Source of the DNA: an uncultured Paracoccaceae bacterium
GTDB lineage: Bacteria; Pseudomonadota; Alphaproteobacteria; Rhodobacterales; Rhodobacteraceae
NCBI GenBank assembly: GCA_947500825.1
Contig: CANMTR010000007.1
Span: forward strand, 62,001 to 126,000
Length of the DNA stretch: 64,000 bases
Direction: 5' to 3'
Below the pieces are notes generated by a model. That model did not search any database. It saw only the letters and a program-made list of their open reading frames with translations, and was not told where the DNA came from. This document shows, one piece after another, positions 12,600 to 20,113 of the stretch (its first letter is position 1; every line of letters starts with the position of its first letter). Position numbers and translations under genes: made by a program.

Positions 12600-13110
12600 A
12601 TGAAGACCCGCATCGCCCTGCTGCGCGAGATAGGCGTGCCCAGGCCCTGTACCCGGTCGCGCCCCATCGAGGTGGTCGGGGCCGATCTGGACGACCCCGG
12701 CCCCGGCGAGATGCGGGTCAGGGTCGCCGCCGCGGGCCTGTGCCATTCCGATCTCTTGGTCATCAACGGCGACAGGCCCCGGGCCATGGCGCTGGCCCTG
12801 GGCCACGAGGCGGCCGGCGTGGTGGAGGTGGTGGGCGAAGGGCTCGACCGCTTCGAGCCGGGCGACCACCACGCCGTCGATCCGGCCGCACCGGGCGCGG
12901 CGGAGCGCATCGCCGAGCTGACGGGCGGCGGCGTCGACGTGGCGGTGGAGCTCGCCGGGTCCGCCGCCGCGCTGCGCTTCGCCTACGACATCGTCCGGCG
13001 CGGGGGGATCGCCGTCACCGACGGCCTGCCGCCTCCCTCTCGCCCGGATCAACGAGCGGTTCGAGCGCCTCGCCACCGGGGAGGCGATCCGCCAGGTCGT
13101 CGTCTTCGAC
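12600..13110 (+). pseudogene. Zinc-dependent alcohol dehydrogenase remnant
   Basis: Begins as a normal medium-chain zinc alcohol dehydrogenase behind a good ribosome-binding site (GGGGAGGG): VRVAAAGLCHSDL with the zinc-binding Cys, ALGHEAAGVVEVVGEG. It then jumps straight from FEPGDH to ERIAELTGGGVDVAVELAGS, missing the structural-zinc lobe and most of the Rossmann fold. After VTDGLPPPS a further deletion and a +1 frame change lead to the normal C-terminal ending ARINERFERLATGEAIRQVVVF. Only about half of the usual 370 codons remain. Its first frame stays open into the next gene, so a fused product is possible but unlikely to be functional. Confidence 0.85.
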
Positions 13111-13193
13111 CGACCCGCGGCTTCCCTAGCGGCATCGTCGCCTCCGTGCTCTCGTCGTTCCTGCATCCCCTGCAATCGAGGAAAGGGGCCGCC

Positions 13194-14417
13194 ATGCGCG
13201 CCACGCTGGTCATCGGCATCTCCGCCGCGCTCGTCGCCGGATCGCTCCGGGGCGCCGCCGCGCAGGAGGGATACGACAACCCCCATGCCGACGAGCCGGT
13301 CGGCGATGTCGAGGCGATGTATTCGGGCGACCTGCTGCCCGACCTGGCCGTCAGCACGTGCCGCAACATCCACCGCCTGTTCCCGACCCGCACGGTGGAG
13401 GCCGGCGGCGATGTCCGCCCCCTGCCCGCCTCCGGCCGGAGCCTCGGCCCGGTCGCCGTCGAGCTGGACGGCGAGACCTATGACCTGAACGACGCCCTGG
13501 CGCTCGACAGCGTCACCGGGCTGATCGTGCTCAAGGGCGGCGAGGTCGTCCACGAGGTCTACCAGCGCGGCAACACGCCCCGGACCCGGTGGATGTCGAT
13601 GTCGGTGGTCAAGTCGATCACCTCGACCCTGGTGGGCGCGGCCCTCCACGACGGGCATATCGGCAGCTGCGACGACGACGTCACCGACTACGTGCCCGAA
13701 CTCGCGGGCAGCGCCTACGAGGGCGTGTCGATCCGCGACATCCTCCTCATGGCCTCCGGCGTGGCCTGGGACGAGACCTACACCAACCCCGCCTCCGACC
13801 GCCGCGACCTGCTGCGCGCGCAACTGGCCCAGGAGGACGGTGCCCTGATGGAGGTCATGGCCGGCCTCGACCGCGCCGGCGACCCCGGGACGATACACAC
13901 CTACTCCACCGGCGAGACGCAGGTCCTGGGAGAGGTCGTGCGCGGTGCGGTCGGCATGCCCGTCTCCCGCTACCTCGCCGAGAAGATCAGGACCCCCTAC
14001 GGCATGGAAACGGACGCCGAGTGGTGGCTCGATGCGCCCGGCGGCGTGGTGATCGGCGGCAGCGGCCTCAGCGCCACGCTGCGCGACTACGCGCGCTTCG
14101 GCCAGTTCTTCCTCGAGGGCGGCATGGCCGGGGGCACCCGCGTCCTGCCGGAGGGCTGGACGGAGACGGCCGGCAGGCCGCAGGACCTCTCCACCGGCGA
14201 GACGATCGACTACGGCTACATGTGGTGGCCCGCCTGGACCGAGGCCTCCCGCGAGGACGAGGCCTTCGCCGCCGTCGGCATCCAGGGGCAGTACGTCTAC
14301 GTCAATCCGGCAGAGCAGGTGGTCATCGCCATGACCTCCGCCCAGCCCGAACCTCTCGGCCGCGAGCCGGTGGAGGCGATGGCCTTCTTCGACACCCTGG
14401 TCGCCGCCATAGAGTGA
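13194..14417 (+). CDS. Secreted NylB-like serine hydrolase (beta-lactamase family)
   Basis: Predicted exported hydrolase of 407 residues in the class C beta-lactamase/6-aminohexanoate-dimer hydrolase fold. A signal peptide (MRATLVIGISAALVAGS...AAAQE) is followed by the nucleophile motif SVVK (in WMSMSVVKSITSTLVG, about residue 140), a Tyr-containing TYSTGETQVLG motif in the place of YxN, and GGSGLSATLRDYARFGQFF plus GIQGQYVYVNP near the C-terminus. The ATG at 13194 has GAAAGGGG upstream. It is read in frame with the dehydrogenase remnant. The substrate is unknown; amide or ester hydrolysis is the family's chemistry. Confidence 0.85.
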   Translation: MRATLVIGISAALVAGSLRGAAAQEGYDNPHADEPVGDVEAMYSGDLLPDLAVSTCRNIHRLFPTRTVEAGGDVRPLPASGRSLGPVAVELDGETYDLNDALALDSVTGLIVLKGGEVVHEVYQRGNTPRTRWMSMSVVKSITSTLVGAALHDGHIGSCDDDVTDYVPELAGSAYEGVSIRDILLMASGVAWDETYTNPASDRRDLLRAQLAQEDGALMEVMAGLDRAGDPGTIHTYSTGETQVLGEVVRGAVGMPVSRYLAEKIRTPYGMETDAEWWLDAPGGVVIGGSGLSATLRDYARFGQFFLEGGMAGGTRVLPEGWTETAGRPQDLSTGETIDYGYMWWPAWTEASREDEAFAAVGIQGQYVYVNPAEQVVIAMTSAQPEPLGREPVEAMAFFDTLVAAIE

Positions 14418-14535
14418 GCCCGGCCGGACGCCCCTGGCCTCCCCGCGTCCCCCGGGGCCGATACCGCACGCCCTCCCCGCGGCAGCCCTGCCCGGCATGT
14501 CCCCGGCCTCGGACGCCCGCCCCCTTGAACGACAC

Positions 14536-14560
14536 GTGGCCCCCGGCATCCGGGGGCCAC
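14536..14560. terminator. Bidirectional hairpin between convergent genes
   Basis: A perfect 11-bp inverted repeat (GTGGCCCCCGG, loop of three bases, CCGGGGGCCAC) lies between the convergent ends of the serine hydrolase and the curlin gene. No long T run follows on either strand, so termination strength is uncertain. Confidence 0.6.
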
Positions 14561-14600
14561 GCTGGTTCTCGCCCGGGCGCGAGGCCCGGTCAGGCTTCGA

Positions 14601-16148
14601 TCACTGCATCACAGTGGCCACGTTGGCATCGCCCGACTGCAGCACCGCCATCGCATTGCCATTCGTGCTCTGTGAGCCGGTGAAGGTATTGCCGATGCCG
14701 TCCTGCATGATCCCGAAATCGTTGTTGTTGCCGGCCACCGTCATGGTGAGATCGTTCCCATCGCCGGACTGCGTGAGCGTACCGGAGCGGAGGCTGACCC
14801 CGTTGATCCTGGAGACCACCATGCCGGGCGTATTGTTGCGATCGCCAGACATAGTGACGGTGAGTTCGTTTCCGGTGCCGAGGCCGCCAACTTCCTGCAT
14901 CGTGGAGAGGTAGTTGTTGCTACCGGAGATCGTCGCCGTGGCGGTCTGATCCTGCCCCGACTGATTGAAGGTCAGGTCGTTGAAGTTTCCCGTCACAAGC
15001 GCATCGATCGAGCCGTTGAAGCCGGTTTGGTCCGAAACGATACTGTTGTCGCTACCGCCGTTCACAGTAAGAATAAGGGCGTTGTCGTCGTTGCTCTGCG
15101 TCGACTCGATAATGTTGCCATCGGCGCCGTTCCGCACCCGGGTCTCGATCGTGTTTCCGTTTCCGGACTGGATCGACAGGATATCGTTATCGCTGCTTAC
15201 GCTCACACCCAGAATGATGTCGTTCCCAGCGCCGACCTGAACGGAGCCGATCTGGTTGTCGTCGGCGCCGCCGGTCAGGGACGTCAAGTTGGTGTTCCCC
15301 GTTCCTTCCTGGCGGGAGCCGGTCTCGTTGCGGTTCCCGGCGACGTTCAGGGTCAGGGTGTTGTCGTCGACCGTGTTATTGATGCCGTCGCCGTATTGCG
15401 ATGCCCCGAACTGGTTGCGATTTCCGGAGATGGAGATGTCCATCGTCCCGCCCTCTGACTGGCGGCCGTTCACGCCTTGGATGAGGGTGGATGTCTCGAC
15501 GCCCGGCAAATCGGCAATACCCGTCAGAGCGCCTCCACCGTTCTCGGCGCCGGTCATGGTCACGTTCATCCGGTTCGTCTCGTTGCCCCCTCCCACTGAC
15601 CATTGGGAAATTTTGGCAACGCGGTTCTCGCGGCCACTCTGATCGACGGTCAGGGTCGGCTTTGAACTATTATTCTTGTTCTGCTGAACGCTACCGATGA
15701 CGTGGCCGCCATCTCCGCGTTGCGTTATGCTGGCGCTGTTCTGTTGAACGTCACCGCCTGGACCGGAAGATTGCCAGACCGCGCCGACCTCGTTCCCGTC
15801 ACTCCGTTGATCAATGACCAAAATGTTGCCACGCCTACCCGGGTTAGTGCCCGTGTGGGTCTGGAAGACGCCCCGGGTATTGTTGCCGGACCATTCGTTG
15901 TTCCGGAGACCGACTTGGTTGTTGTCGCCCGACTGCGTCACGGTCAGATTGTTGAAGTTGTTCTCCTGCACCAATGCAGTGGCGTTGTCTGCATCGCCCG
16001 CCACGTTGCCGCTGCCCTGCGACTGATCGATTGTGGCGTCGTTACCAATTCCACTTTGCCGCAGATCGGTGGCGTTGTCCTGAGCGGCAACCGCACCAGC
16101 CAGGAGCGTCAGTGCGGTCGTGGTGAGCGCGAGTTTCGTAAGTTTCAT
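14601..16148 (-). CDS. Large curlin-repeat protein (CsgA-like amyloid subunit)
   Basis: Secreted 515-residue protein: signal peptide MKLTKLALTTTALTLLAGAVAAQ, then an uninterrupted run of short repeats rich in Asn, Gln, Gly, Ser and Thr. Units such as TQSGDNNQVG, TLTQSGDGNDLTMTVAG and LQSGDANVATVMQ fit the curlin Q-x-G-x-x-N pattern that stacks into cross-beta fibres. It is more than three times the length of E. coli CsgA (about 150). The gene is divergent from csgF across 654 bases and uses more AAC/ACG/CAG and T-rich antisense triplets than its neighbours. By analogy it is exported by CsgG and assembles outside the cell; whether it is the major or nucleating subunit is inference. Confidence 0.88.
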   Translation of the reverse strand: MKLTKLALTTTALTLLAGAVAAQDNATDLRQSGIGNDATIDQSQGSGNVAGDADNATALVQENNFNNLTVTQSGDNNQVGLRNNEWSGNNTRGVFQTHTGTNPGRRGNILVIDQRSDGNEVGAVWQSSGPGGDVQQNSASITQRGDGGHVIGSVQQNKNNSSKPTLTVDQSGRENRVAKISQWSVGGGNETNRMNVTMTGAENGGGALTGIADLPGVETSTLIQGVNGRQSEGGTMDISISGNRNQFGASQYGDGINNTVDDNTLTLNVAGNRNETGSRQEGTGNTNLTSLTGGADDNQIGSVQVGAGNDIILGVSVSSDNDILSIQSGNGNTIETRVRNGADGNIIESTQSNDDNALILTVNGGSDNSIVSDQTGFNGSIDALVTGNFNDLTFNQSGQDQTATATISGSNNYLSTMQEVGGLGTGNELTVTMSGDRNNTPGMVVSRINGVSLRSGTLTQSGDGNDLTMTVAGNNNDFGIMQDGIGNTFTGSQSTNGNAMAVLQSGDANVATVMQ

Positions 16149-16802
16149 AATACGTATTCCCGATTATAATCCGTTTTCGGCTCACGCCGTTCAAATTGGC
16201 AGCAAGCCGCAGGAAATGAATTTACGGATAACAATAATAATTACGTCGCCCACCGTAATCACGGGAAGGCCGCCCTTCACGCCACTAACGAACGTGAAGA
16301 TCGCACTTTAAACAGGTTATGCTGCGTGATCCGGGTAAATGGCAGGCCGCCTTTTCCCGTATCCATCCTCCTCGATCCATCCCCTTACTCGAGGTTAGAC
16401 GAGGTTAACGTTTCGGTGCAAACAAATTCGTGATCTGGCTTCATTAACCTCTAGATACCTTTGTTAACCTGTTGTTAAGGAACTGCTAATTCTTGGATCC
16501 GCCCCGTAACAGCGCACCAAGTCGACGTTCCGGCCCCTCGCGGCCCGTGTCGGGCGGATGTCCTGATCCGCACCACGAAACGCGACTCCGGGAACGCCGC
16601 GCCGCGGGCGGAGGAACTCGCGGAAGGAGGAACGGGCCGGGCGAATACGGTAGAAGTTCCTCCGCAAGGCGAATTAACCAAATCGTTGCGGATCGGCAAC
16701 ATTTTTTGACGATCGAAACCGGGCCCGGAATATCGGGAGCTTCCGTGTTAGGGACGCGCCACCGTATTTCGGCCACGGGGACTTGGGCGTATTGGAGCCA
16801 GA
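16149..16802. promoter_or_regulatory. Divergent curli promoter region
   Basis: A 654-base stretch with no gene separates the curlin gene (minus) from csgF (plus). It is clearly more AT-rich than the surroundings. It holds several TTAAC motifs (near 16405, 16444, 16464 and 16475), a 10-bp palindrome AATACGTATT just before the curlin ATG (16149-16158), and a small inverted repeat GTTGC/GCAAC followed by six T (16685-16707). Promoters for both operons should lie here. Confidence 0.7.
16464..16478. promoter_or_regulatory. CtrA-like binding site TTAA-N7-TTAA
   Basis: The sequence TTAACCTGTTGTTAA is an exact match to the full CtrA consensus TTAA-N7-TTAA known from alphaproteobacteria. It sits midway between the divergent curlin and csgF start codons (about 315-325 bases from each). 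Additional half-sites lie at 16405 and 16444. Function as a CtrA operator is inferred. Confidence 0.55.
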
Positions 16803-17255
16803 ATGATTAGATCGCTTTCGTATGTTATCCTGCTTTCCCTCGCCGCTCCCGCCGGGGCGGGAGATCTTACCTACACGCCGATCAATCCGTCCTTTGGCGG
16901 GAATGCCCTGAACTCCGCGCATCTCCTCGGCCTCGCCAATGCCCAGAGGAACGCCACCGCCCGCGATTTCGAGGATCCGCTCGACGACATCGAAGAGATG
17001 GACGACACGGCGTCGGCAGGCACGTCGGATGCCGACCTGTTCGTCCGCCAGCTCCAGAGCAGGCTGTTCTCGTCCCTTGCCGCGCAGGTCAACGACGCGA
17101 TCTTCGGCGACGATTCGCAGGATCAGGGCACGGTCACGTTCGGCACCACCACGGTGGAATTCGCCCGCACCACCCAGGAGATCCGGCTGGTGATCACCGA
17201 CGCGCTTGACGGGACGGTCACCGAGATCGCCGTGCCGCAGCTGGTGGCCCGATGA
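16803..17255 (+). CDS. csgF: CsgF, curli assembly factor
   Basis: Secreted accessory protein (150 residues) that caps the CsgG pore and couples curlin export to nucleation at the cell surface. A signal peptide (IRSLSYVILLSLAAPAGAG) precedes the hallmark N-terminal segment DLTYTPINPSFGGNALNSAHLL, the CsgG-binding part in E. coli. The rest (F.RQLQSRLFSSLAAQVNDAIFG and a C-terminal beta-rich half) follows the family. It overlaps csgG by four bases (ATGA), so the two are translationally coupled. Confidence 0.93.
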   Translation: MIRSLSYVILLSLAAPAGAGDLTYTPINPSFGGNALNSAHLLGLANAQRNATARDFEDPLDDIEEMDDTASAGTSDADLFVRQLQSRLFSSLAAQVNDAIFGDDSQDQGTVTFGTTTVEFARTTQEIRLVITDALDGTVTEIAVPQLVAR

Positions 17256-18304
17256 TCTGGCGCCTGACGCTCCTCGCCGCGGCCATCGGCCTGTCCGGCT
17301 GCGCCGCCACCTCCGACAGGGTCGCCCGGTCGGGAACGCCCGCCATGCTGTCCGAGATCACGCCGCAGAACGTGGCCCTGCGCGCGGTCCCGCCGGCGTC
17401 CGAACGGGTGCGCGTGGCCGTCTACGACTTCCCCGACCTCACGGGGCAGTACAAGGAGCGCGACGCCGTCCAGTCCCTGTCGCGGGCGGTCACCCAGGGC
17501 GGCGCGCCGATGCTTCTCAAGGCGTTGCAGGACGCGGGCGAGCGGCGCTGGTTCATCCCGCTCGACCGTTCCAGCCTCGATTCGCTCCTGCGCGAGCGCC
17601 AGATCGTGACCGAGATGCGCCGCATCTACCGTGGCGAGGAGCGGATCGACCCGTCCGTCCTGGGCCCGCTCGACCATGCGGGCATCATCCTGCAGGGCGG
17701 CATCGTGGGCTACGACACCAATACCGTCACCGGCGGCACGGGCGCGCGCTATCTCGGCATCGGCGGCGACACCGAATGGGTGCTCGACGTGGTGACCGTC
17801 AGTCTGCGCGCGGTCTCCACCGAGACGGGCGAGGTGCTGACCTCCGTCATGGTGCAAAAGCCCATCGCCTCGCGCTCCGTCAGGGGCAGCGTGTTCAACT
17901 ACATCGCCCTCGACGAGATCCTCGAACTCGAAGGCGGCTTCACGACCAACGAGCCGCGCCAGGTCGCCGTGCAGCAGGCCATCGAGAAAGCCGTCGTGGC
18001 CCTGATCGCCGAAGGCACCGAACTGGGTGTCTGGCGCTTCTCCAACCCCGATGCCGGGGCGAACTTCGTGCGCCTCTACCGACAGCAGAAATACGGGGGC
18101 CAGACCGGCCTCGCCCGGATACCGGCGACGCCCCCCGCCACGCGGGCCCCGGCCACGCTGCGCCGCACCACCCCGGTCGCGCCCCAGCCGGTGCGCGCGA
18201 CGGTCCGCACCATCCCGCCCGCGCAAACCCGAAGCCAGCCGGCCGCGCAGGAACCGGCCCCGCCCGCCCCTCCCCCGCCGGGCGCGGACGAGACCGTCGG
18301 ATGA
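17252..18304 (+). CDS. csgG: CsgG, curli export pore lipoprotein, with Pro-rich tail
   Basis: Outer-membrane lipoprotein forming the nonameric curlin secretion channel. The lipobox GLSGC gives the lipidated Cys at residue 17. The CsgG domain includes VAVYDFPDLTGQYKERD, LSRAVTQGGAPMLLKALQDA, RRWFIPLDRSSLDSLLRERQI and the barrel-forming GGIVGYDTNTVTGGTGARYLG. The core ends near residue 283 (RLYRQQKYGG); a further 65-70 residues, rich in Pro, Ala and Arg, are absent from the 277-residue E. coli protein. No csgE lies in the window. Confidence 0.93.
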   Translation: MIWRLTLLAAAIGLSGCAATSDRVARSGTPAMLSEITPQNVALRAVPPASERVRVAVYDFPDLTGQYKERDAVQSLSRAVTQGGAPMLLKALQDAGERRWFIPLDRSSLDSLLRERQIVTEMRRIYRGEERIDPSVLGPLDHAGIILQGGIVGYDTNTVTGGTGARYLGIGGDTEWVLDVVTVSLRAVSTETGEVLTSVMVQKPIASRSVRGSVFNYIALDEILELEGGFTTNEPRQVAVQQAIEKAVVALIAEGTELGVWRFSNPDAGANFVRLYRQQKYGGQTGLARIPATPPATRAPATLRRTTPVAPQPVRATVRTIPPAQTRSQPAAQEPAPPAPPPPGADETVG

Positions 18305-18335
18305 TCCGGAGCCTATCTTTGCGTGGGAGCTGTTG

Positions 18336-18350
18336 TTAACCTAGGGTCAA
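18336..18350. promoter_or_regulatory. Possible second CtrA-like site (one mismatch)
   Basis: TTAACCTAGGGTCAA fits TTAA-N7-TTAA with one mismatch and shares the ten bases TTGTTAACCT with the perfect site at 16461-16470. It lies 25 bases upstream of the second curlin-like gene and downstream of the csgG stop. Functional role is inferred. Confidence 0.35.
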
Positions 18351-18375
18351 GCCATTTCATCCCGGGAGGCCATTC

Positions 18376-19005
18376 ATGATCACGATGCCAATTCTTAGGA
18401 TCTCGGCCGCCGTCGCCATGCTCGCCGCGCCGGCGACCGCACAGAACAACTCCCTCTTCATCCTTCAGGACAACAGCACCGGGGGGATGTCCAACACGAT
18501 CTCCGTCGACCAGAGCGCGGCGAGCCGCTCCAGGGTGGGCTCCGCCGAGACACCGGCCGAGCAGATCGGCGGCGGCAACGTGGCGGACGTGTCGATCGTC
18601 GGAGAGGGCTCGCGCGTCGATCTTTCCCAGCGATCGGTGACCTCGCGGGTGGACGGCAACGACGTCTCCATTGATCTGTCGGGCACGACCCTTCTCGGCA
18701 CGGTCTCCCAGGCGGGGTCCGGAAACCGGGGAGCGGTATCCGTCTCCGGAGCGCGGGCACGGGGCTCTCTCGTCCAGGACGGGAACTTCAACGCAGGCAC
18801 CGTCTCGGTGTCGGGGAGCGACGCCTCGGGCGCGCTGCGCCAGATCGGCGACGGCAACGCGACCGATCTCGAGGTCAGCGGAGCCGGAACATCCGTGACC
18901 TACGACGTGATCGGCAACGGCCTCACGGCCGTCGTTCCGCCGACCGTCCGCTCGAACGGCGCGACGGTCACGATCACCCAGACCGGTCCCGGAGCGCCGA
19001 AATGA
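18376..19005 (+). CDS. Second curlin-like secreted protein (possible CsgB role)
   Basis: Secreted 209-residue protein with a signal peptide ending near MLAAPATAQ. The mature part repeats short hydrophilic units such as GGGNVADVSIVGEGSRVDLSQ, GSGNRGAVSVSG, DGNFNAGTVSVSG and IGDGNATDLEVSG: Gly-Asn turns every 10-20 residues with alternating small or hydrophobic residues, resembling curlin repeats but with fewer Gln. A GGGAGG site precedes the ATG. It sits between csgG and csgH, so a nucleator (CsgB-like) or minor subunit is the likely job; this is inferred from context. Confidence 0.75.
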   Translation: MITMPILRISAAVAMLAAPATAQNNSLFILQDNSTGGMSNTISVDQSAASRSRVGSAETPAEQIGGGNVADVSIVGEGSRVDLSQRSVTSRVDGNDVSIDLSGTTLLGTVSQAGSGNRGAVSVSGARARGSLVQDGNFNAGTVSVSGSDASGALRQIGDGNATDLEVSGAGTSVTYDVIGNGLTAVVPPTVRSNGATVTITQTGPGAPK

Positions 19006-19376
19006 GGGGGATGCTGACCGCCGCGTCCGTTCTCCTCGGCACCGCCCTTCCCGGGGCGGCGTCGGCCGAGTCGCTCGCCATCCCCGAAATCGCCGCCATC
19101 CCCGTCGACGGGGGCGTCAGGCTGGAGGCCAGCGTCCTGGGCATGGGCGACGGCGACGTGACCGCGACCTTCACGGTCGAGCGGGAGGAGAACGGGAACA
19201 GATTGAGCAGCTTCCAGAGCACCACGCTCCCTGTCTCGGCGGGTACCCGCGCCGTGGTCGCCCGAACCACCTTCTCGATGGCGACCGCCGCGCACCTGAC
19301 CGCGAATCTCGCGATCGAGGGCCGCGACGGGCATCTGGGGGACGCCCGCCTGACGCTCGGACCGGAGGGAGGCTGA
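19002..19376 (+). CDS. csgH: CsgH-like periplasmic curli chaperone
   Basis: Small secreted protein (124 residues) with signal peptide MRGMLTAASVLLGTALPGAASA and an Ig-like beta-sandwich pattern: VRLEASVLGMGDGDVTATFTVEREENGN followed by STTLPVSAGTRAVVARTTFSM. This resembles CsgH, the alphaproteobacterial counterpart of CsgC that keeps curlins soluble in the periplasm. The start overlaps the stop of the preceding curlin-like gene (ATGA), and the next gene begins two bases after its stop. Name is from pattern and position. Confidence 0.75.
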   Translation: MRGMLTAASVLLGTALPGAASAESLAIPEIAAIPVDGGVRLEASVLGMGDGDVTATFTVEREENGNRLSSFQSTTLPVSAGTRAVVARTTFSMATAAHLTANLAIEGRDGHLGDARLTLGPEGG

Positions 19377-19378
19377 CC

Positions 19379-20113
19379 ATGACCCGTGCCCGCCACCTCC
19401 TCGGCGCGTTTGCCACCGCGGCCCTGGCGAACTTCGGCGCGGCCGCGACCGCGCAGGACGACACCCGCTTCGTCGACGCGTTTTCGGGGCCGTGGTTCGC
19501 GTTCGACGTCGCGGCCCGCGCAGGAGAGGACCCCTGCCGGATCGACCTCGACCAGGGCGACGACGCCCCCCTCCCGGCCCGGACCTCCGGTTGCGCAGAG
19601 ACGCTCGCGGGCGTGTCGGGCTGGCGGATCGAGGGCGGAATGATCCACCTCATCGGGGGCGGCGGCGACGAGCTCGCGTCCCTGGGAGGCAACCAGTTCC
19701 GCATGACCGGAGAGGTGTCGCAGGCCGGCACCAGCCTGATCCTGGATCGCGCCGAGGGGGACGGAACGGGGGCCGACCTTGCCCGCGCCGTCCGGCGCCA
19801 CGGATGCTACTTCTCCGGCTTCGCCTCGGACTGCGCGGCACCCGAGGCACTCGCCGCCCCGCCGCGGGGCCGGGGTCGCATCACCGCCCTCGCCGACGTG
19901 AACGTCCGTGTCCAGCCGCGGCGGGAGGCCGAGATCCTGGGCGTCGTCGAGCGGGGATCGTCGATCGCCACCGAGAGCTGCCTGCAAACGGCGGACGGGT
20001 ACTGGTGCCGGGCCAGCTTCGGCGATGCCCCCGGCTGGATCGCCAAATCCGCCCTGCGCCAGGACGAATGGCCCGTCGTGACCTTCGTCGCGGAAACCCC
20101 CTCCGGGGATTGA
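19379..20113 (+). CDS. Secreted AprI/Inh-like plus SH3 domain protein
   Basis: Exported protein of 244 residues (signal peptide to about residue 26, ...GAAATAQ). Residues about 30-120 follow the AprI/Inh metalloprotease-inhibitor pattern: SGPWFAFDV, a Cys in DPCRIDL, a second Cys in SGCAETLAGVSGWRIEGG, then MIHLIGGGGDELASLGG and a beta strand ending TGEVSQAG. Residues about 165-235 form a bacterial SH3 domain (ALADVNVRVQPRREAEILGVVERGS ... YWCRASFGDAPGWIAKSAL). It is the last gene of the csg operon, two bases after csgH. A role in protecting curli or its exporters from proteases is conjecture. Confidence 0.7.
   Translation: MTRARHLLGAFATAALANFGAAATAQDDTRFVDAFSGPWFAFDVAARAGEDPCRIDLDQGDDAPLPARTSGCAETLAGVSGWRIEGGMIHLIGGGGDELASLGGNQFRMTGEVSQAGTSLILDRAEGDGTGADLARAVRRHGCYFSGFASDCAAPEALAAPPRGRGRITALADVNVRVQPRREAEILGVVERGSSIATESCLQTADGYWCRASFGDAPGWIAKSALRQDEWPVVTFVAETPSGD

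Follow-up and report, generated by a model that had tools for sequence, protein, structure and literature searches.

The 64-kb window analysed here (the whole stretch of DNA, to which all positions refer) belongs to the 3.93-Mb genome of an uncultured Paracoccaceae bacterium and carries six genes that, judged by sequence, are a curli (type VIII secretion) system with a parts list differing from that of E. coli. The last of the six, P0006, encodes a 244-amino-acid (aa) protein with a predicted protease-inhibitor-like barrel and an SH3-like domain, and on comparison of loci and genomes it is genetically tied to one branch of the pore protein CsgG. Very probably, P0006 is a dedicated curli component, and it marks a curli branch that we did not find described among the matches listed in the literature searched. 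As one gene inherited with one CsgG branch, it offers a concrete knock-out candidate for the study of subunit delivery in the absence of CsgE; should it guard or escort curlins, as is tentatively suggested below, it would add a control step to the secretion of functional amyloid.

A first-pass annotation had read six open reading frames (ORFs) in this locus, and all were confirmed on the sequence in the same places and order. The two ATGA overlaps that it described, csgF/csgG at 17252-17255 and curlin/csgH at 19002-19005, were likewise read in the sequence. What it had called an extra gene is P0006, which proved to be the conserved part and is unnamed in the curli papers examined. The features of the locus are as follows:

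14601..16148, minus strand: P0001, a 515-aa curlin with 10 strict QxGxxN motifs, divergent from csgF (similarity to other curlins)
16149..16802, no strand: divergent intergenic region with a candidate CtrA-type site (TTAA pattern scan)
16803..17255, plus strand: csgF (P0002, 150 aa; Pfam CsgF and PDB CsgF chains)
17252..18304, plus strand: csgG (P0003, 350 aa), with an ATGA overlap with csgF (Pfam CsgG and PDB CsgG)
18336..18350, plus strand: one-mismatch site TTAA-N7-TCAA between csgG and the second curlin (pattern scan)
18376..19005, plus strand: P0004, a 209-aa in-operon curlin (Pfam Curlin_rpt, 33.1 bits; relatives in other loci)
19002..19376, plus strand: csgH (P0005, 124 aa), with an ATGA overlap with the curlin P0004 (NCBIfam NF041112; family profile against PDB)
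19379..20113, plus strand: P0006, 244 aa, a secreted-type protein with a predicted Inh (I38) barrel and SH3b domain (profile, AlphaFold2 model, Foldseek, locus comparison)

P0006 and one branch of CsgG

Among 295 genomes of the family, csgF was found in 14 and full-length P0006 in nine (10 copies, E < 1e-80), with eight genomes carrying both (Fisher p = 2e-11). Some P0006 match at E <= 0.001 is present in 71/295 of these genomes; outside the full-length ten, the strongest of these matches has E 2.6e-8, and their coverage of the profile is confined to its C-terminal part (position 137 onward). The csgF-positive genomes of the family without P0006 are G008, G041, G054, G105, G203 and G232, and in G008 and G041 the csg locus runs into a contig end. 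In a sample of 385 genomes of the class, P0006 reached E <= 1e-20 in one, the host genome itself, and six other csgF-positive genomes were without it, one of them below the curated cut-off.

The same association was seen when we scanned a genome contig collection with two conserved peptides of the P0006 alignment (A3) as seeds. The scan returned 25 P0006 loci, all of which adjoin curlins and 23 of which carry csgF and csgG; the remaining two look decayed, the P0006 frame being cut in one (L067) and split over two frames in the other (L080). By title, these loci come mostly from Rhodobacteraceae or its genera, together with Devosia (2), Pseudaminobacter and a Hyphomicrobiales metagenome-assembled genome. 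A plasmid collection, which took no part in building the P0006 alignment, held one near-full-length match, on the Aureimonas plasmid pAU20a, within an operon of csgF, csgG, three curlin-type genes, a relative of the 209-aa curlin, csgH and P0006; the best of 47 plasmid CsgG matches came from this same plasmid. A partial P0006 match in Sulfitobacter W074 (L091) adjoins curlin2-like and CsgH-like frames. Over 29 loci, the recurring families are P0006 (29, by construction), curlins (28), CsgG (27), CsgF (26) and CsgH (22), while the next family is found at 7 loci, with its frames opposite curlin genes (8/8), and the others listed at no more than 5. P0006 is also present at four loci (L024, L032, L075 and L079) where the CsgH model finds no CsgH. 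One genome, G170, carries two distinct curli loci of the P0006 type (L028 and L032), one with and one without csgH.

In a tree of 38 CsgG rows, a single branch (support 99/90) separates the 28 with P0006 from the 10 that lack it. When the presence of P0006 was shuffled on this tree, the mean number of changes was 9.1, and 0/500 shuffles gave a count as low. P0006 itself had served to collect part of the P0006-bearing rows; among the loci selected by csgF, all nine inside the branch (window included) carry P0006 and none of the 10 outside does. Four loci that repeat loci of the family sample (L057, L066, L069 and L078) were left out of the tree, as they were of the family recurrence and the site scans, and neither G041, for which no CsgG sequence was available, nor G471 is in the tree. 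That P0006 is a chance neighbour was rejected on the genome co-occurrence, the locus scan, the CsgG tree and the Aureimonas plasmid.

The first-pass annotation had proposed looking for csgE elsewhere in the host genome. The genome search returned no CsgE match, so that a csgE at another site was rejected, and across the genomes with csg or P0006 loci CsgE was found in 0/41, the E. coli control being positive. The CsgE-less curli branch occurs in Rhodobacterales and in some Hyphomicrobiales. At three P0006-less loci, an IalB-like ('invasion associated locus B') protein follows csgG (L036, 8227-8958, by similarity; L092, 5880-6677, and L093, 5956-6471, by annotation), as though a different additional component occupied the position of P0006.

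Predicted fold and proposed role of P0006

The N-terminus of P0006 resembles a signal peptide, and the protein further has an Inh-like and an SH3-like domain. Its first-pass designation as AprI/SH3 was right in kind, although P0006 by itself falls below the Pfam cut-offs for both domains (Inh, 22.1 bits against 25; SH3_3, 22.8 against 27); at E <= 0.01, Inh is matched by 27/28 members of the P0006 family (best 2.4e-10) and SH3_3 by 25/28. No NCBIfam family names the protein, the sole match (one member, E 0.006) being to an unrelated enzyme, and its annotated relative on the Aureimonas plasmid is labelled only 'SH3 domain-containing protein'. The word 'SH3' was not found in the main texts of the curli papers checked for it, and searches of the curli literature with protease inhibitor, SH3, csgG and several genera gave no title or abstract on the P0006 gene among the matches listed.

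An AlphaFold2 model built from 28 sequences (mean predicted local distance difference test score 91.1, predicted template modelling score 0.83) places eight strands between residues 37 and 123, forming a predicted barrel. When this model was compared with PDB by Foldseek, the top match was the barrel of U-Omp19 (7mhw, E 3.6e-6), followed by lysostaphin-type SH3b domains, and the Inh of the Serratia protease complex (1smp_I) stood at rank 19 (E 6.6e-3); phmmer of P0006 against PDB gave three weak matches and none to Inh. The model points to an I38 (Inh) barrel joined to an SH3b domain. The family has a cysteine pair (53/72) plus four further invariant cysteines, and a GGNQxRxTG hairpin and a DGxWC motif are strongly conserved. 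A candidate AxA-Q26 cleavage site, read by eye, would make W39 residue 14 of the mature protein. The 13-residue stretch that starts at Q26 and precedes W39 is gapless in 28/28 members, and Gln at +1 is present in 28/28, compared with 20/41 CsgF rows, a set that includes repeats.

By homology, CsgG and CsgF would make up the pore in the outer membrane, P0001 and P0004 would be the fibre subunits, and CsgH would keep the curlins soluble. P0006 would be a sixth, dedicated part of this system, cysteine-rich and presumably secreted. It probably lies on the periplasmic side, where its SH3b domain may tether it to peptidoglycan close to CsgG while the barrel would guard or escort the long unfolded curlins toward the pore, covering part of the work done by CsgE in E. 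coli. We propose this role as a periplasmic guard or escort of unfolded curlins tentatively, since the CsgG and CsgF partners are constant while curlin ORFs (those with at least 8 curlin motifs in the compared loci) range up to 993 aa, since P0006 is retained at the four loci without CsgH by model, and since I38 proteins have a presumed periplasmic, protein-protecting role (PMC9486555, in part).

Several observations weigh against this proposal. In the genome G013, which is without CsgF and CsgG, an open P0006 frame (L086) adjoins a csgH-like frame, and the curlin-repeat frames lie elsewhere in the genome, away from P0006. The idea that this copy is broken was rejected, as its frame is open and the TGA within the match is its own stop. 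P0006 can therefore outlive the pore, and because of this open copy in a genome without CsgG we slightly lowered our confidence that P0006 is a dedicated component. The locus counts partly reflect how the loci were gathered, P0006 having been the query in the scans of family genomes and contigs. The CsgG tree was rooted at its midpoint and contains nine unresolved forks, and several of its outer branches are long, that of L034 most of all, so that a single branch is no proof of a single origin. The 10 CsgG outside the branch are without P0006 in genomes that are also without CsgE, and because these CsgG manage with neither protein, P0006 is no general replacement for CsgE. Peptidoglycan binding, finally, is predicted from the modelled fold alone.

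Other roles for P0006 were weighed against the same evidence. As a classical I38 protease inhibitor, it would insert a short mature N-terminus into a secreted or periplasmic protease and so protect the curlins, with no contact to curlin or CsgG. The modelled fold, with its matches to U-Omp19 and to the Inh of the serralysin complex, is consistent with such a role, as are the cysteine pair and W39, which as mature residue 14 compares with Trp15 of APRin (PMC9486555, in part), and the fixed spacing before this Trp and the invariant Gln at +1 fit it as well. However, strands beta3-5, which are reported to contact the protease in I38 complexes (PMC9486555, in part), are by our strand count the least conserved in P0006 (1.56, 2.41 and 2.24 bits, against 3.0 for the beta6-7 hairpin). 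The model also has a helix from mature residue 3, so that no tail is free, and in U-Omp19 it is a disordered N-terminus, not the barrel, that inhibits (PMC9486555, in part). As for a target, the only Peptidase_M10_C match in the host genome (28.6 bits, cut-off 20.7, 73/193 positions) forms the C-terminus of a frame of 948 aa that, by eye, resembles an extracellular nuclease and shows no serralysin zinc motif, a serralysin without this domain not having been searched for. Because this sole match ends a nuclease-like frame, we slightly reduced our estimate for an inhibitor and consider it unlikely.

The absence of CsgE from all 41 genomes, the tie of P0006 to one CsgG branch and the conserved hairpin and DGxWC motif would each suit a true CsgE replacement, that is, an adaptor at the periplasmic mouth of CsgG that selects curlins. 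But outside the branch, CsgG in genomes without CsgE are not accompanied by P0006, G013 retains P0006 without CsgG, and no match between P0006 and CsgE appeared in the searches made, and we regard this role as somewhat unlikely. Yet another role would put P0006 outside the cell, secreted with the fibres and anchoring or capping curli, or would make it a protein of the matrix whose gene is inherited along with the operon. Surface glycans and peptides are also bound by SH3b domains, and P0006 is the last gene of the operon both here and in Aureimonas; the split of the CsgG tree (28/28 against 0/10) nevertheless better fits a working part than a passenger, and we think an extracellular anchor or cap more unlikely still than either an inhibitor or a CsgE replacement.

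Curlins, export proteins and candidate CtrA-type control

The first-pass annotation had read the 515-aa ORF as a giant curlin. Against Pfam Curlin_rpt, P0001 scores 17.4 bits, under the cut-off of 20.7 (best single repeat 22.4 in the genome scan), and P0004 is over the cut-off. P0001 matches the curlin-like ORFs of other csg loci with up to 150.8 bits, and 66/89 of these ORFs, which include repeats from four loci present twice, score above 30 bits; 40 shuffled versions of P0001 gave no match to the same ORFs. The view that P0001 is merely Asn/Gly-rich was rejected on these shuffles, and on sequence evidence the curlin reading stands, so that the refuting condition set by the first-pass annotation does not hold as far as the sequence goes. 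In both P0001 and P0004 the spacing of Gln peaks at 22 residues (z 3.3 and 4.4), in line with the period of about 22-23 residues in curlin repeats; within P0001, the Asn peak is at 11 and no peak stands out for Gly. Ten of the 11 curlin-repeat matches in the host genome at E <= 10 sit in the locus, the exception being a match of 13.4 bits on contig C75. Of the 27 other P0006 loci that have csgF and csgG, 23 contain a close relative of P0004 (E < 1e-12), the exceptions being L073, L074, L075 and L079. CsgA homologues of up to 529 residues and 22 repeats have been published (PMC3521004, in part), and curlins with 4 to 62 repeats, of which one from Roseovarius indicus was modelled, are described in parts of Sleutel 2023 (PMC10192328).

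CsgF (P0002) scores 97.8 bits against Pfam PF10614 (cut-off 25.8) and matches PDB CsgF chains at E 8.1e-7. Its NP-[SN]-FGG stretch, the pore-binding N-terminus, aligns with that of E. coli CsgF and recurs across loci. At the site of Asn36 in E. coli CsgF, which forms the second pore ring, P0002 has Leu, and relatives mostly have Leu, Gly or Phe. CsgG (P0003) scores 171.5 bits against Pfam PF03783 (cut-off 20.8) and matches PDB CsgG at E 6.5e-49. Where the pore ring of E. coli CsgG has Tyr66, Asn70 and Phe71 (PMC7304575, in part), a manual count on the alignment gives Arg, Ser and Leu here. Rows of the P0006 branch have Leu, Val or Met at the Phe71 site, and rows outside the branch have Leu, Phe or Tyr.

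CsgH (P0005) scores 49.4 bits against NCBIfam NF041112 (cut-off 35), and a profile of its family has as its top PDB match 2n59, the CsgH of R. palustris (E 0.027); phmmer of the single CsgH against PDB gave no curli match. Two distant cysteines forming a disulphide define CsgH-like proteins according to parts of Taylor 2016 (PMC4838910). P0005 has zero cysteines and so falls outside that definition, and, read off the alignment, 0/24 distinct CsgH of the P0006 branch have two cysteines in the domain. The pair is present in two CsgH from outside the branch, those of L036 (24/111) and L093 (21/106). Since the CsgH of L033, also outside the branch, lacks it too, loss of the cysteine pair is no perfect branch marker.

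The full CtrA site is TTAA(N7)TTAA (PMC6180460, in part). An exact TTAA-N7-TTAA lies at 16464-16478 in the divergent region and is the only exact copy in the window; further TTAA in this region are at 16308, 16405, 16444, 16475 and 16674. The two one-mismatch sites of the window (16475 and 18336) are also in the curli locus, which thus holds all three window sites. The host genome has 11 exact sites, compared with 6 for a reversed-pattern control. When 860 bases around the csgF start were scanned in 28 P0006 loci, exact sites at spacing 7 numbered 6, in 6/28 loci, and the 20 other spacings had 15 between them, 4 of these at spacing 2; at <=1 mismatch, spacing 7 gave 22 sites, whereas the other spacings averaged 8.35 and did not exceed 13. 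A scan for promoters and terminators found nothing above shuffles, and the literature on curli and CtrA yielded no title or abstract on this link among the matches listed.

Because TTAA-N7-TTAA upstream of csgF is enriched in a spacing-specific manner, these results suggest CtrA-type control of the csg locus, for which we see the chances as about even. The alternative, that CtrA does not control the locus and that AT-rich intergenic DNA carries these sites by chance, we rate at a little under even. Chance would fit the 22/28 loci that have no exact site upstream of csgF, the host-genome count for the reversed pattern, the absence of any site at <=1 mismatch in Aureimonas and the four exact sites at spacing 2; it sits poorly with the excess at spacing 7, both among exact sites and at <=1 mismatch, and with the fact that every window site at <=1 mismatch falls in this locus. 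A bolder combination would have P0006 found a new class of factors for curli secretion, as a periplasmic escort that is derived from I38 proteins, is tethered by its SH3b domain and replaced CsgE once in the ancestor of the branch, with a CtrA phosphorelay instead of CsgD controlling expression; taken together, we consider this quite unlikely.

Two further observations concern the surrounding DNA. The ORF at 12600-14417 begins, by eye, like a zinc-type alcohol dehydrogenase and continues as a serine-hydrolase-like secreted protein, which looks like a piece of a dehydrogenase gene lying ahead of a separate gene. The G+C content falls from ~0.70 to 0.51-0.63 across 14500-16999, a stretch that takes in P0001 and the promoter region between it and csgF.

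Comparison with known systems

The first-pass annotation was correct that the parts list is unlike that of E. coli. It had also treated the missing csgE and csgD and the long curlin as oddities, and these, like the presence of csgH, are instead the published norm of the class: according to parts of Dueholm 2012 (PMC3521004), Alphaproteobacteria are without csgC, csgD and csgE, and csgH occurs in many of them, always next to csgA/B. The missing csgE and csgD and the long curlin are thus ordinary for Alphaproteobacteria, and novelty of the layout itself was rejected, as it is already described there. Among the six genes of our locus there is no regulator, no search with a csgD model having been made. 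The same parts of that study state that alternative proteins must take the role of the missing Csg proteins; the words 'SH3' and 'inhibitor' are absent from its main text. Like the alphaproteobacterial operons it describes, the present one has csgF, csgG, long curlins and a curlin-adjacent csgH, and no csgE, nor is csgC or csgD among its six genes. It suggests, in part, that csgH might stand in for missing csgE and csgF, whereas here csgH is found alongside csgF and csgG. The CsgH of Rhodopseudomonas palustris (2N59; PMC4838910, in part) likewise adjoins a curlin, but it has the cysteine pair that the CsgH of our branch do not.

With the I38 inhibitors (Inh, APRin and Brucella U-Omp19; PMC9486555, in part), P0006 would share the barrel fold, the cysteine pair and the Trp. 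Unlike them, it has a fused SH3b domain, four more invariant cysteines and a gene within a curli operon, and any inhibitory activity of P0006 is putative. With csgBAC/csgDEFG of E. coli, the locus has in common the CsgG pore, CsgF and curlin repeats; it differs in that the host genome is without CsgE, the six genes are without csgC or csgD, and CsgH and long curlins are present.

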